A stretch of DNA of 64,000 bases, from NCBI RefSeq assembly GCF_005490985.1, contig NZ_CP027869.1:1488001-1552000 (forward strand), given 5' to 3'. This DNA comes from Curtobacterium sp. SGAir0471. GTDB lineage: Bacteria; Actinomycetota; Actinomycetes; Actinomycetales; Microbacteriaceae. Shown one piece after another: positions 58,935 to 64,000 of the stretch. Under the pieces are notes generated by a model that saw only the letters and a program-made list of their open reading frames with translations, had not been told where the DNA came from and made no database searches. Made by a program: the position numbers and the translations under genes. The first letter of the stretch is position 1. Each line of letters starts with the position of its first letter.

Positions 58935-60233
58935 ATGGCTGCCCGGAGCACGACGATCGATCCCACGAAGGACACCGAGCCCGAGGCCGTCGCGGCGGAC
59001 GACGCCGACGCGGCCGAGGGGAAGGCTGCGCCGAAGAAGCGCGCCACCAAGACCACCGCCACGAAGAAGACCGCCGCGAAGGCCGCGCCGAAGAAGACCA
59101 GCACGCGCGCCAAGAAGCAGGCCGACGACGAGGACGAGGACGACGAGGCCGTCGAGCCCGCGGACGAGGCCGTCGACGCGACGGACGACGCCGAGGACAC
59201 CGAGTCCGAGTCCGAGGAGAAGGACGCCAAGCCGGACGCCGCCGCAGCGGTCGCCGCGGGTGCGCTCGTCATCTCGCAGTCGGACGACGACGAGGCCCCG
59301 GTCTACTCGACGACCATCACCGGCGCCACCGCCGACCCGGTCAAGGACTACCTCAAGCAGATCGGCAAGGTCGCGCTCCTCAACGCCGAGCAGGAGGTCG
59401 AGCTCGCGATGCGGATCGAGGCCGGCCTGTTCGCCGAGGACAAGCTGCAGCACTCGACGGGCCTGTCGAAGCCCGAGGAGCGCGAGCTCCGCTGGGTCGC
59501 CCGCGACGGCCAGCGCGCGAAGTCGCACCTGCTCGGCGCGAACCTCCGCCTCGTCGTCTCGCTCGCGAAGCGCTACACCGGTCGCGGCATGCAGTTCCTG
59601 GACCTCATCCAGGAGGGCAACCTCGGTCTGATCCGTGCGGTCGAGAAGTTCGACTACACGAAGGGCTTCAAGTTCTCGACGTACGCCACCTGGTGGATCC
59701 GTCAGGCGATCACCCGCGCCATGGCCGACCAGGCCCGCACGATCCGCATCCCGGTGCACATGGTCGAGGTCATCAACAAGCTCGCCCGCGTGCAGCGCCA
59801 GATGCTGCAGGACCTCGGTCGCGAGCCCACTCCGGAAGAGCTCGCCCGCGAGCTCGACATGACCCCGGAGAAGGTCGTCGAGGTCCAGAAGTACGGCCGC
59901 GAGCCCATCTCGCTCCACACCCCGCTGGGTGAGGACGGCGACTCGGAGTTCGGCGACCTGATCGAGGACACCGAGGCGGTCGTGCCGGCCGACGCGGTGG
60001 GCTTCACGATGCTGCAGAAGCAGCTCGAGAGCCTGCTCGACTCCCTGTCCGAGCGCGAGGCGGGCGTGATCCGCATGCGCTTCGGCCTCGGTGACGGCCA
60101 GCCGAAGACCCTCGACCAGATCGGTGACACGTTCGGCGTGACGCGCGAGCGCATCCGTCAGATCGAGTCGAAGACGATGGCGAAGCTCCGCCACCCGTCC
60201 CGGTCGCAGTCGCTCCGCGACTACCTCGAGTAG
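58935..60233 (+). CDS. sigA: Primary RNA polymerase sigma factor (SigA/RpoD)
   Basis: 432 aa, ATG preceded by GAGAGGTGATCGC. The first ~125 residues are a Lys/Ala-rich then acidic region typical of actinobacterial SigA. Region 1.2: [20 protein letters not shown]. Region 2: [37 protein letters not shown] and [20 protein letters not shown] (-10 recognition). Region 3: [13 protein letters not shown]. Region 4.2: [20 protein letters not shown] (-35 recognition). It binds -10 boxes of the TAnnnT kind seen across this window. murT starts four bases after its stop. Confidence 0.97.
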
Positions 60234-60237
60234 GCCG

Positions 60238-61497
60238 ATGCGCTTCCTCATCCCGATCCTGGTCGGGCGGATCCTCCGCGCCCTCGCCCGTGCGCGGGGC
60301 GGCGGGTCCGCCTACCCGGGGTACATCGTCCTGAAGCTCGTGCCGGACTTCCTGCAGCACGTGACGAAGCAGTTCCCGAACGGCGTCGTCTTCGTGCTCG
60401 GCTCGAACGGCAAGTCGACGACGACGCACATGATCTCGGACATCGTCCGCGCGCACGGCCTCCGCGTGTTCACGAACCCGTCGGGCGCGAACCTGCCGCA
60501 GGGCATCGCCTCGGCGCTGCTGTCCGAGGTGTCGCTGACCGGCAGGCTCAAGGCCGACATCGGCATCCTCGAGGTGGACGAGGCCTTCGCGGTCGAGCTC
60601 GCCGGCATCTTGTCGCCCTCGACGGTGACGATGCTCAACGTGCAGGTCGACCAGCTCTACCGGTTCTTCGAGACCGAGCGCGTCGCGACGATGATGCTCG
60701 ACACCGCGGCGCTGTCGACGGCGAACGTCATCACGAACCGCGACGACCAGTTCCTCGACGCCTACGACGCCCGCTCCGGGCAGCGCGTGCTCCGCTTCGG
60801 TGCGAGCACCGAGGTCGTGGCGGCGGCGCCGAACGGCCTGCAGAACGCCGACGACTTCGACCGGACCGCCGGCGAGCCGAACCCGGCGGAGTCGGAGGTC
60901 GTCGCGAACACGGGTGACGGTGCGACGATCCGCTTCGACGGCGTGGACATCCCCGTCCGCCTGCCGGCGCGCGGTCTGCACTACGCGGTGGACGCAGCTG
61001 CTGCGACCGCGACCGCGAGTGCCGCGCTCGGCGCGCAGTTCCGCGCCGACGCCGTGACGAAGGCCTTCGGCACGATGAAGCCGGCGTACGGCCGCGGTGA
61101 GCGGCTGCCCATCGCCGGCGAGGCCGCCGAGTTCACGATGTTCAAGAACGCGGCCAGCCTGCAGCTCAACCTCGACGCCCTGCCGGACCGTCCGGAGCAG
61201 GTCCTCATGGCGATCGACGAGGGCACGCCGGACATCTCGTGGATCTACGACATCGACTTCTCGAAGCTCGACCACGTGGACGTCGTCTCCGGTGACAAGG
61301 CGTGGCAGATCGCGATCGCGCTCGAGCACGCCGGTGTCCGCATCGGCCGTGTCGAGCCCGACGTCGAGGCCGCGATCCGGCACATGGAGCAGCTCGGCTC
61401 GACGACGTCGGGCACGAAGAACTTCATCGTCAACTACGAGATCATGATGATCGCCCGCAAGGCCCTGGGCCACGGCGACATGGAGAAGACCGCATGA
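60238..61497 (+). CDS. murT: MurT-like Mur ligase family protein without the zinc ribbon
   Basis: 419 aa, ATG four bases after the sigA stop. ATP-binding loop FVLGSNGKSTTTHMISDIVR; ILEVDEAFAVELAGILSPST; TMLNVQVDQLYRFFETERVA; C-terminal MurT-specific DISWIYDIDFSKLDHVDVVSG with the catalytic Asp region. In characterised MurT (Staphylococcus, Streptococcus) a four-cysteine zinc ribbon lies in the central domain; here the matching stretch (about 185-235) and the whole protein contain no Cys. Known MurT phosphorylates the D-Glu alpha-carboxyl of lipid II so GatD can amidate it. It is coupled by ATGA to gatD. Confidence 0.9.
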   Translation: MRFLIPILVGRILRALARARGGGSAYPGYIVLKLVPDFLQHVTKQFPNGVVFVLGSNGKSTTTHMISDIVRAHGLRVFTNPSGANLPQGIASALLSEVSLTGRLKADIGILEVDEAFAVELAGILSPSTVTMLNVQVDQLYRFFETERVATMMLDTAALSTANVITNRDDQFLDAYDARSGQRVLRFGASTEVVAAAPNGLQNADDFDRTAGEPNPAESEVVANTGDGATIRFDGVDIPVRLPARGLHYAVDAAAATATASAALGAQFRADAVTKAFGTMKPAYGRGERLPIAGEAAEFTMFKNAASLQLNLDALPDRPEQVLMAIDEGTPDISWIYDIDFSKLDHVDVVSGDKAWQIAIALEHAGVRIGRVEPDVEAAIRHMEQLGSTTSGTKNFIVNYEIMMIARKALGHGDMEKTA

Positions 61498-62267
61498 CGG
61501 CCGACCGGCTGACCATCCTGCACGTCTACCCGCGTCAGATGGGTGTCTCGGGCGACCGCGGCAACGTCGTCGCCCTGCGGCGCCGTGCCGAGGCCGCGGA
61601 CATCACGACCGAGGTCGTCGAGTACGCGCCCGGTGACGACCTGCCGACCGCGGCCGACGTCGTGGTGGTGGGCAACGGTCCGCTCAGTGCGATGCGCTCG
61701 CTCGGTGCCGACGTCGCGCGCATCGGGGCGCCGCTCCGCGAGTTCGCCGCGTCCGGTGTGCCGGTCGTCGCGGTCGGCGGTGGCTTCGACCTCGCGACGA
61801 ACGAGGTCGTCCCCACCGAGGGCTCGCCGGTCGCGGGCTTCGGTGTGTTCGACGCGCGGGCCGTCCGCGGTGCCGAGCGCCGCGTGAACTACTTCGTGCT
61901 CGACACGCGCTACCCGGTGCTGCCGGGAGCGCCGAAGCGTCTCGCGGGGTTCGAGGACCACGCGACCCGGATCGAGCTCGGCGCGGGCGTGGAGCCCTTC
62001 GCCGACGTCGTCTCCGGCGGCGGCAACCAGGCCGGGTCCGCCGTCGAGGGCGCGTTCGCGGGCGCGTCCTTCGGGACGCACACGCAGGGCCCGATCCTGC
62101 CGCTCAACCCGCAGCTGACCGATGCGGTGCTGTCCGCGGCGACCACCCGCCTCGGGCGCGAGTACGTCGCGGACCCGGAGCGCACGGCGACGATCGACCG
62201 GTACGCGCGCGAGGCGCGCGCGACCATCGACCGCTACGTCGACAAGGCGTTCAAGCGGATCGCCTGA
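61494..62267 (+). CDS. gatD: GatD-like class I glutamine amidotransferase lacking the nucleophilic cysteine
   Basis: 257 aa, ATG overlapping the murT stop. The GatD skeleton is complete: LTILHVYPRQMGVSGDRGNV, GFGVFDARAVRG, RLAGFEDHATRIELG, VSGGGNQAGSAVEGAFAG and SFGTHTQGPILPLNP (His196). The nucleophile elbow, CGGYQ in typical GatD, reads GGGFD (Gly95-Asp99), and there is no cysteine anywhere. So it should not hydrolyse glutamine in the usual way. As a conserved partner of MurT it may have a scaffolding or different acceptor-delivering role. Confidence 0.88.
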   Translation: MTADRLTILHVYPRQMGVSGDRGNVVALRRRAEAADITTEVVEYAPGDDLPTAADVVVVGNGPLSAMRSLGADVARIGAPLREFAASGVPVVAVGGGFDLATNEVVPTEGSPVAGFGVFDARAVRGAERRVNYFVLDTRYPVLPGAPKRLAGFEDHATRIELGAGVEPFADVVSGGGNQAGSAVEGAFAGASFGTHTQGPILPLNPQLTDAVLSAATTRLGREYVADPERTATIDRYAREARATIDRYVDKAFKRIA

Positions 62268-62358: not shown

Positions 62359-62583
62359 CTACTTCGACTCGTGGAGTCGGCTGCTCTCGTCGTGCCACTC
62401 GAGCGCGGTCGCCGCGAGCTTGTCCTTGAACTCGGCGCCGTGGTGGGCGCAGAAGTAGAGCTCGCCACTGGCCATGGTGGCGCGGATGTACGCCTGCGCT
62501 CCGCAGCTGTCGCAGCGGTCAGCGGCGGTGAGCTGGTGGCTGCTGGCTTCGTCGATGGAGAGGTCGTGCACGGTCTGGGTCAT
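62359..62583 (-). CDS. Small zinc-ribbon protein, DUF7455-type
   Basis: 74 aa, ATG at 62583 with GAGGAG nine bases upstream. LTAADRCDSCGAQAYIRATM and GELYFCAHHGAEFKDKLAAT place a CxxC and a CxxH pair, which suggests one zinc site. The C-terminus is acidic. Such proteins are found next to sigA/parE in many actinobacteria; the function is unknown. Confidence 0.88.
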   Translation of the reverse strand: MTQTVHDLSIDEASSHQLTAADRCDSCGAQAYIRATMASGELYFCAHHGAEFKDKLAATALEWHDESSRLHESK

Positions 62584-62761
62584 TGCTGTGCTCCTCACGG
62601 ATCGCAGGTGGTGCGGGGTGGACCCCCATTTGAACACGTGGTGGCTGGGAGACGTGCATCGCGGACGGCCTGTTTCGCTGAGCGCGGACCGGATGTCCCC
62701 ACTCCGAGGCGCGCCGCTCTCCGGAGCCGTGGCTGTCGGAGCCCGTCGGTACGATCGGGAG

Positions 62762-64000
62762 GTGAGCTCCGACTACTCTGCACGCCACCTCTCCGTCCTC
62801 GAGGGACTCGAGGCCGTTCGGAAGCGTCCCGGCATGTACATCGGTTCGACGGACTCCCGTGGGCTCATGCACTGCCTGTGGGAGATCATCGACAACTCCG
62901 TCGACGAAGCACTCGCCGGGCACGGTGACGAGATCGGGGTCGTGCTGCACGCCGACGGGTCGGTCGAGGTCCGTGACACCGCCCGCGGCATCCCCGTCGA
63001 CGTCGAGCCGAAGACCGGGCTGACGGGTGTCGAGGTCGTGTTCACCAAGCTGCACGCCGGCGGCAAGTTCGGATCCGGGTCGTACGCGGCTTCGGGCGGG
63101 CTGCACGGCGTCGGGGCCTCCGTCGTGAACGCGCTGTCGGAGCGCCTCGACGTCGAGGTCGACCGCGGCGGCAAGACGTACGCGATGTCGTTCCACCGCG
63201 GCGAACCGGGGACCTTCGCCGGTGACGGACCCGACGCCCCCTTCACACCGTTCACCTCGGGCAGCGAGCTGCGTGTCGTCGGCAAGGTGAAGAAGGGCGT
63301 GACCGGGTCGCGCATCCGGTACTGGGCGGACCGGCAGATCTTCACCCAGGACGCCCGCTTCAGCACGGGTGACCTGGTCAACCGTGCACGCCAGACGGCC
63401 TTCCTGGTGCCCGGGCTCGGCATCACCATCACGGACGAGCGCCCGGCGTCGATCGAGGCCGCCGCGCAGCGCGCCGAGGCGACCGGCACCACGGTCACGC
63501 CCGGTCCGGTCATCGAGCGCTTCCGGTACGAGGGCGGCATCAGCGAGTTCGTCGAGCACCTCGCCGTCGACTCCGCGGTCACCGACGTCTGGCGCATCCA
63601 GGGCACCGGGACGTTCACCGAGACCGTGCCGATGCTCGACGACAAGGGACACATGGTGTCCACCTCGGTCGAGCGCACGTGCGAGGTCGACATCGCGCTG
63701 CGGTGGGGGAGCGGGTACGAGACCGTCGAGCGGAGCTTCGTCAACATCATCGCGACGCCCAAGGGCGGCACGCACCTGACCGGCTTCGAGGCCGGCATCG
63801 TCAAGGCCGTGCGCACCCAGGTCGAGGCGAACGCCCGCAAGCTCAAGGTCGGGCAGGACAAGCTCGAGAAGGACGACGTGCTCGCCGGCCTCACCGCCGT
63901 GCTGACCGTGCGCCTGCCGGAGCCGCAGTTCGAGGGGCAGACCAAGGAGGTCCTCGGCACCCCCGCGGTCCGCAAGATCGTCGACCAGGTCGTGTCGAAG
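62762..64000 (+). CDS. parE: DNA topoisomerase IV subunit B (ParE/GyrB family), 3' truncated by window edge
   Basis: 413 codons, open to the end of the window, GTG start six bases after TACGAT. GHKL ATPase motifs: SVLEGLEAVRKRPGMYIGST, WEIIDNSVDEALAG (Mg-binding Asn), VRDTARGIPVD, and KLHAGGKFGSGSYAASGGLHGVGASV. The transducer domain has the catalytic-lysine loop (IATPKGGTHLTGF; QTKEVLG). It is one half of a type II topoisomerase that separates or supercoils DNA. The sigA neighbourhood and divergence from canonical GyrB favour ParE; the gyrB assignment cannot be fully excluded without the C-terminus. Confidence 0.9.
   Translation, partial: MSSDYSARHLSVLEGLEAVRKRPGMYIGSTDSRGLMHCLWEIIDNSVDEALAGHGDEIGVVLHADGSVEVRDTARGIPVDVEPKTGLTGVEVVFTKLHAGGKFGSGSYAASGGLHGVGASVVNALSERLDVEVDRGGKTYAMSFHRGEPGTFAGDGPDAPFTPFTSGSELRVVGKVKKGVTGSRIRYWADRQIFTQDARFSTGDLVNRARQTAFLVPGLGITITDERPASIEAAAQRAEATGTTVTPGPVIERFRYEGGISEFVEHLAVDSAVTDVWRIQGTGTFTETVPMLDDKGHMVSTSVERTCEVDIALRWGSGYETVERSFVNIIATPKGGTHLTGFEAGIVKAVRTQVEANARKLKVGQDKLEKDDVLAGLTAVLTVRLPEPQFEGQTKEVLGTPAVRKIVDQVVSK

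Follow-up and report, generated by a model that had tools for sequence, protein, structure and literature searches.

The MurT-GatD gene pair of Curtobacterium sp. SGAir0471 combines a ligase half with an intact ATP site and a glutaminase half without its catalytic Cys and His. On sequence evidence, we consider it probable that this Cys-less pair is a ligase joining the cross-bridge amino acid to the α-carboxyl of D-Glu in B-type peptidoglycan, and that it is isofunctional with a CofE-like enzyme of other Microbacteriaceae. The basis that we found directly consists of a dead triad, a kept ATP site, purifying selection, a preserved fold, a shared chromosomal locus, exclusion between the two modules, and wall-bridge genes in the alternative cassette. 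A preliminary description of this DNA had proposed that the pair may have been repurposed, the acyl phosphate made by MurT being passed to an amino acid and not to ammonia. Our findings give this idea strong indirect support without proving it: the dead glutaminase, the kept ATP site, and the shared locus and exclusion speak for it, and its zinc-ribbon and His arguments did not hold.

The window analyzed here, a stretch of 64,000 nucleotides, contains both genes on the plus strand. murT (60238..61497) encodes a Mur-ligase-type synthetase of 419 amino acids that lacks the Cys4 zinc ribbon and was assigned from Pfam and PDB sequence matches. gatD (61494..62267) encodes a protein of 257 amino acids with a class I glutamine amidotransferase fold and a dead active site, for which we used an AlphaFold model. 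The two ORFs overlap in an ATGA and neither contains a cysteine codon, confirming the preliminary observation that both proteins are free of Cys. The bordering genes, named by reading, are sigA for an RpoD-type sigma factor upstream (58935..60233, plus strand) and a parE/gyrB-type topoisomerase subunit gene downstream (62768..64000, plus strand), which runs off the window. A small ORF between gatD and parE (62359..62637, minus strand), presumably encoding a DUF7455 protein, also belongs to the downstream border.

The pair matched the MurT_C, Mur_ligase_M, and GATase_3 families of Pfam, and a PDB sequence search matched it to solved MurT and GatD chains at E values of 2e-14 to 4e-25. No PF01996 (CofE) domain was found in either protein by Pfam search. 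The gene order, the folds, the P-loop Lys, and the E108 equivalent are those of the MurT-GatD lipid II isoglutaminyl synthase of Staphylococcus aureus and Streptococcus pneumoniae. The GatD fold is likewise kept, as had been claimed: the AlphaFold model reached a pLDDT of 91.3 and its best PDB match was 5n9m (S. aureus GatD; TM score, 0.82). In contrast, the Curtobacterium GatD carries Gly95 and Gln198 in its active site, and the pair scored 64 to 91 bits against NCBIfam isoglutaminyl synthase equivalog cut-offs of 400 to 800 bits (90.9 and 89.9 of 800, 79.6 of 450, and 64.3 of 400). On these comparisons, the Cys-less pair fails the tests that define an isoglutaminyl synthase but probably works like the MurT half of one. 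MurT also has weak sequence similarity to the Mur ligases MurC to MurF, which perform ATP-dependent amino acid ligation; it differs from them in acting on the α-carboxyl of residue 2. In the sections of PMC6113224 that we drew on, the MurT N-terminal domain is described as truncated relative to those of MurC to MurF. A MurT-like ligase of archaeal (pseudomurein) systems is reported in PMC11915815 from species without a GatD homolog; these archaea have no GatD at all, whereas Curtobacterium keeps a GatD without an active site under selection.

We ruled out gene decay of the Cys-less pair because dN/dS in 12 pairs of loci did not exceed 0.25, ranging from 0.04 to 0.21 for MurT and from 0.05 to 0.25 for GatD. 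A second intact MurT/GatD pair, which the preliminary description had raised as a counterargument, was also ruled out: we found no other MurT_C match in the Curtobacterium genome, and its two other GATase_3 matches read as PdxT and PurQ.

Alignment with S. aureus GatD placed the nucleophile Cys94 at Gly95 of the Curtobacterium protein (codon 61776..61778, plus strand), as had been noted. The claim that the catalytic His is retained as His196 proved incorrect, as S. aureus His189 (GTYLHGP) aligned with Gln198 (GTHTQGP; codon 62085..62087, plus strand) and His196 lies two residues away. The reported preservation of the MurT ATP loop and WIYDIDF motif was borne out by alignment: the P-loop GSNGKS occupies residues 55 to 60 (60400..60417, plus strand), Glu112 corresponds to the Mg-binding E108 of S. 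aureus, and Asp338 within WIYDIDF (61249..61251, plus strand) corresponds to Asp349, the third residue of the putative triad. Across Microbacteriaceae, the C94 equivalent was lost in 148 of 178 GatD loci and the H189 equivalent in 64 of these 148, counts to which certain genomes contribute two loci and certain loci enter twice. Gly occupied the C94 position in 97 of the 148 loci, followed by Ala (24), His (12), Ser (7), Asn (5), and Thr (3). The Asp349 equivalent is kept in the window, but 77 of the 131 Cys-less MurT rows without a ribbon have lost it. Because residues at C94, H189, and D349 were lost while the P-loop Lys and E108 were invariant in all 146 Cys-less MurT rows, we conclude that the ligase half has been kept and the glutaminase half has not.

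S. aureus MurT-GatD complexes with C94G or C94S did not amidate lipid II in vitro, as described in the portion of PMC6113224 consulted. The Gly at this position in Curtobacterium is the same change as C94G, and from the behavior of these mutants, glutaminase-driven amidation by the Curtobacterium pair is very unlikely. We also think it quite improbable that the pair still amidates the D-Glu α-carboxyl by drawing on dissolved ammonia and not on glutamine, a reading to which the intact MurT ATP site and the ability of many amidotransferase synthetase subunits to use ammonia lend some credit. The S. aureus mutant complexes lost amidation, an amidated carboxyl would block the B-type link, and it would be left unexplained why ligase, racemase, and EctB genes share the locus.

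The absence of a Cys4 zinc ribbon from MurT, noted in the preliminary description, was confirmed, and its significance as a sign of repurposing was not: two CxxC motifs were missing in 18 of 20 MurT proteins of other families in the order. Only 2 of these 20 and 4 of 23 Cys-type Microbacteriaceae MurT rows contained two CxxC motifs, as did 12 of 15 rows of one Cys-less lineage. Consistent with this, PMC6113224, in the part considered here, reports the ribbon from only a subset of bacterial MurT proteins.

We scored MurT at an E value of ≤1e-20 in 199 Microbacteriaceae genomes and found it in 163. GatD was Cys-less in 143 genomes and of the Cys type in 22, including 4 with both forms, and was unreadable in 2 further genomes with MurT; the rest had only a strong CofE-like match (27 genomes) or none of the three modules (9 genomes). 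The MurT searches scored 8 to 11 candidates per genome, and a GatD profile search was repeated on 70 genomes with at most 39 candidates per genome; this profile found no GatD in any of the 36 genomes without MurT. Only the normal Cys/His pair was present in 18 of the 199 genomes, such as those of Leucobacter and Lysinibacter. Next to MurT, the profile did not find GatD at four loci. Two of these (L070 and L298) belong to one genus, g81, with genomes of ~1.1 Mb, and retain MurT along with a short, eroded GatD-like ORF of ~190 amino acids without Cys; the other two (L254 and L319) lie at or near contig ends or have little flank.

Outside the family, a MurT query across the order matched 59 of 159 genomes and left 100 without a match. 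Both Cys and His were kept in all 20 GatD proteins that we read from other families, chosen to represent 19 genera and 8 families from 52 matched other-family genomes. Among the 120 GatD matches listed for named relatives, Cys was absent from all, and all 120 matches listed for a Leucobacter GatD query kept both Cys and His. The check suggested in the preliminary description, whether Cys loss coincides with B-type peptidoglycan, gave a mixed outcome: none of the 20 other-family loci was Cys-less and no second pair was found in the Curtobacterium genome, yet Microbacteriaceae, most of whose tabulated genera are B type, do not all have the Cys-less form (27 CofE-like, 18 normal-only, and 9 module-free genomes).

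A FastTree phylogeny of 189 MurT rows, in which several long branches leave the exact joins unsure, resolved the Cys-less state as two changes. One clade comprised 131 ribbonless rows (support, 100) and the other 15 rows, 12 of which had two CxxC motifs (support, 99). By this tree, the GatD Cys is lost twice in Microbacteriaceae, with both lines residing between sigA and parE. The Cys-less types also replace each other within genera, including g37, g42, and g48.

The position of the Cys-less pairs further distinguished them from normal pairs. sigA or parE adjoined 138 of 147 tabulated Cys-less loci. Three of the nine exceptions lie away from this region (L039, L052, and L056), and the other six are L101, L104, L288, L314, L320, and L322; several of the nine are short flanked. 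By comparison, normal pairs with judgeable flanks occupied other genomic places: none of the 12 Cys-type Microbacteriaceae loci whose flanks were long enough lay at sigA-parE, nor did any of the 20 from other families, and a further 18 Cys-type loci had flanks too short for their position to be judged. The three displaced loci are second Cys-less pairs in genomes (G122, G159, and G113, respectively) that contain another Cys-less pair. Since these wide-flanked pairs are off the locus, the function of Cys-less pairs need not be the same everywhere, and a role in ligating an amino acid or amine elsewhere than the cross-bridge, on another wall polymer or at a nonbridging site, gains some plausibility. 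We regard such a role as unlikely for the pair at sigA-parE, given that the alternative cassette at this locus can carry genes for diaminobutyrate synthesis, a racemase, and a lipid II flippase, which point to the cross-bridge.

The alternative cassette emerged from the genomes without MurT and GatD. We obtained the sigA-parE region for 32 of these 36 genomes, and among the 31 that were readable, 24 contained a CofE-like gene and 7 did not. In the canonical-only genomes, the interval was empty in five of six read, and the sixth had a 1.6-kb gap in which nothing passed the ORF filter. At one locus of the genus Leucobacter (L141), sigA is followed directly by the small gene and parE; the normal pairs of Leucobacter and Lysinibacter were read at four other loci (L057, L063, L079, and L080). 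In genus g49 (L134 to L136), the interval reads as an amino acid ABC transporter (binding protein, permease, and ATPase) without a ligase, and we found neither MurT/GatD nor a CofE-like protein in these genomes.

A CofE-like match at 1e-15 was present in 30 of 199 Microbacteriaceae genomes. It was strong in 27, at 1.6e-111 or better, and weak in the other 3, at 1e-38 to 1e-47. The strong gene lay inside the sigA-parE interval in 24 of 27 genomes; as read, the remaining three were outside it, with two on other contigs (G094 and G156) and one at a contig end (G044). These 24 intervals usually contained an ATPgrasp_ST protein and often Alr-type racemase parts, with EctB in two and MurJ in two. 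Both EctB proteins and the one MurJ protein that we tested passed the NCBIfam cut-offs. Two tested CofE-like proteins scored 47.6 and 28.8 bits against PF01996 (cut-off, 25 bits), placing the module in the same family as CofE, the F420-0:L-glutamate ligase. Unlike a true CofE, the cassette protein scored only 30.1 bits against the CofE equivalog model, whose cut-off is 180.65 bits, and the family is not homologous to MurT.

A profile search with the CofE-like alignment yielded at least 540 relatives, of which we kept the best 80. sigA was in the stretch at 78 of these best 80 loci, the exceptions being one short contig and one Erysipelothrix locus. Neighbors at the best 80 of the at least 540 loci included ATP-grasp (77), Alr-type racemase (55), EctB (5), and MurJ (4) genes, and no stretch among these 80 had a match to the window MurT or GatD at an E value of ≤1e-15. 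EctB, a diaminobutyrate aminotransferase, occurred in five cassettes (L145, L149, L152, L208, and L224), which are candidates for producing diaminobutyrate cross-bridges; one of these, the Humibacter locus L145, combines the CofE-like gene, both racemase parts, EctB, and ATP-grasp in a single cassette. Six cassettes contained a gene for a MurJ-type lipid II flippase (L128, L130, L157, L181, L192, and L207), the four named ones being from Microbacterium. A B2-type cross-bridge would be expected to call for diaminobutyrate synthesis, an amino acid racemase, and a lipid II flippase. Outside Microbacteriaceae, three families of the order (f12, f18, and f6) together contained 27 genomes with weaker CofE-like matches (1e-42 to 1e-61). 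These lie in open frames of 496 to 1,016 amino acids, 26 of 27 being over 800, and perhaps represent an enzyme that makes cross-bridges in a different kind of wall.

The two modules excluded each other across genomes. We found neither MurT nor GatD in any of the 27 strong CofE-like genomes, nor a MurT match in 50 named CofE-type genomes drawn from the best 80 loci, which we searched with the query that had matched 59 of 159 genomes of the order. All three genomes with a weak CofE-like match also had the Cys-less pair, adjoining it in two (G053 and G123) and on another contig in one (G147). Fisher's exact test gave a P value of 1.1e-18 for exclusion in the 27 genomes, which overstates the evidence because the genomes are related; the alternation within 10 genera is a more reliable measure. 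Species in these 10 genera (g7, g9, g13, g57, g58, g74, g76, g79, g84, and g85) alternated between 16 Cys-less and 12 CofE-type genomes, and none had both in strong form. We considered whether the interval is merely an insertion hot spot, with position and exclusion arising without shared function, as the transporter of genus g49 and the empty intervals of canonical-only genomes might suggest. We consider this quite improbable, since the exclusion is genome-wide and the cassette genes are wall related.

Relatives of the CofE-like protein also occur in another phylum. Erysipelothrix tonsillarum has one that is 64% identical, and other Erysipelothrix also have one. A table in PMC4062643 assigns B1δ to Erysipelothrix rhusiopathiae and Holdemania filiformis. 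Of 145 genomes from the Erysipelothrix family, only 20 had the protein, and 17 of 19 further loci from this family had no match to the cassette queries. At one locus (L328:5037-7192), the CofE-like gene lies directly behind murE with an overlap of a few bases (murE, 458.8 bits; cut-off, 257.3 bits), and at another (L329), it is followed by an ATP-grasp gene.

For decades, B-type peptidoglycan has served as a chemotaxonomic marker, and we take Curtobacterium to be B2β with D-Orn. Leucobacter counts as B type, and if the wall of this genus, which has only the normal pair, is of this type, a third route is needed; this is the main point left unexplained. The excerpted table of PMC7033078 gives Frigoribacterium and Parafrigoribacterium as B2β with D-Lys or Lys, Homoserinimonas as B2β with D-Orn, Salinibacterium as B, Cryobacterium as B2γ with diaminobutyrate, and the Lysinibacter structure as unknown. 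Subtercola and Agreia are B2γ and Frondihabitans is B2β in the corresponding part of PMC5945732. Cys-less GatD was found in named Frigoribacterium and Parafrigoribacterium, both B2β genera by that excerpt, and CofE-like loci were found in Salinibacterium and in Homoserinimonas and Cryobacterium metagenome-assembled genomes (MAGs). The split by genus name is not clean, because Frigoribacterium sp. CG_9.8 (L154) has a CofE-like locus. Microbacterium has both modules, with Cys-less GatD in M. cremeum and M. esteraromaticum and the CofE-like module in M. testaceum and others. A simple ornithine/lysine rule for module choice is not supported, given that both modules occur in B2β genera and in Microbacterium. 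Lysinibacter sp. HNR carries a normal Cys pair, which fits the proposed B-type ligase role of the Cys-less form. Against our main reading, we count the 18 normal-only and 9 module-free genomes, the 4 genomes with both pairs, the 3 weak co-occurrences, and the spread of CofE-like proteins beyond known B-type bacteria. Among the open PMC papers listed by our searches, we saw none that names an enzyme for joining the cross-bridge to D-Glu.

For the substrate, the acceptor, the role of GatD, and the equivalence of the modules, we infer the following scheme for the Cys-less pair as a cross-bridge ligase. Like its canonical counterpart, MurT would use ATP to form an acyl phosphate at the α-carboxyl of D-Glu, or 3-hydroxy-Glu, in a wall precursor. 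The acyl phosphate would then be attacked by the amine of the amino acid that forms the cross-bridge, presumably D-Orn in Curtobacterium, and not by ammonia. GatD would no longer hydrolyze glutamine and may instead be an obligatory partner, serving as a scaffold or acceptor channel in which the former glutamine pocket or tunnel shapes the acceptor path. CofE-family enzymes join an amine to a carboxylate, so two modules with different folds could perform the same step; the CofE-like enzyme would then be the isofunctional occupant of the sigA-parE interval in other Microbacteriaceae, with the ATP-grasp and racemase genes possibly supplying or extending the bridge.

The residues at the C94 and H189 positions of GatD vary by lineage, being Gly/Gln in Curtobacterium, Gly/Lys in Frigoribacterium-like loci, Gly/Gly in Parafrigoribacterium, and, for most members of the ribbon lineage, His/Ile or His/Leu. 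More speculatively, and with less confidence than in the ligase role itself, sigA-parE may be a wall chemotype locus into which unrelated ligase modules are swapped, with GatD as the subunit for the acceptor amino acid and its clade-specific pocket residues setting the bridging diamino acid.

These findings provide two candidate ligases for the cross-bridge step of B-type peptidoglycan, together with their gene neighbors and named genera. If our main reading is true, a glutamine amidotransferase complex would have become an amino acid ligase by loss of its glutaminase twice within Microbacteriaceae, and an enzyme of unrelated fold would be its isofunctional replacement at one chromosomal place.
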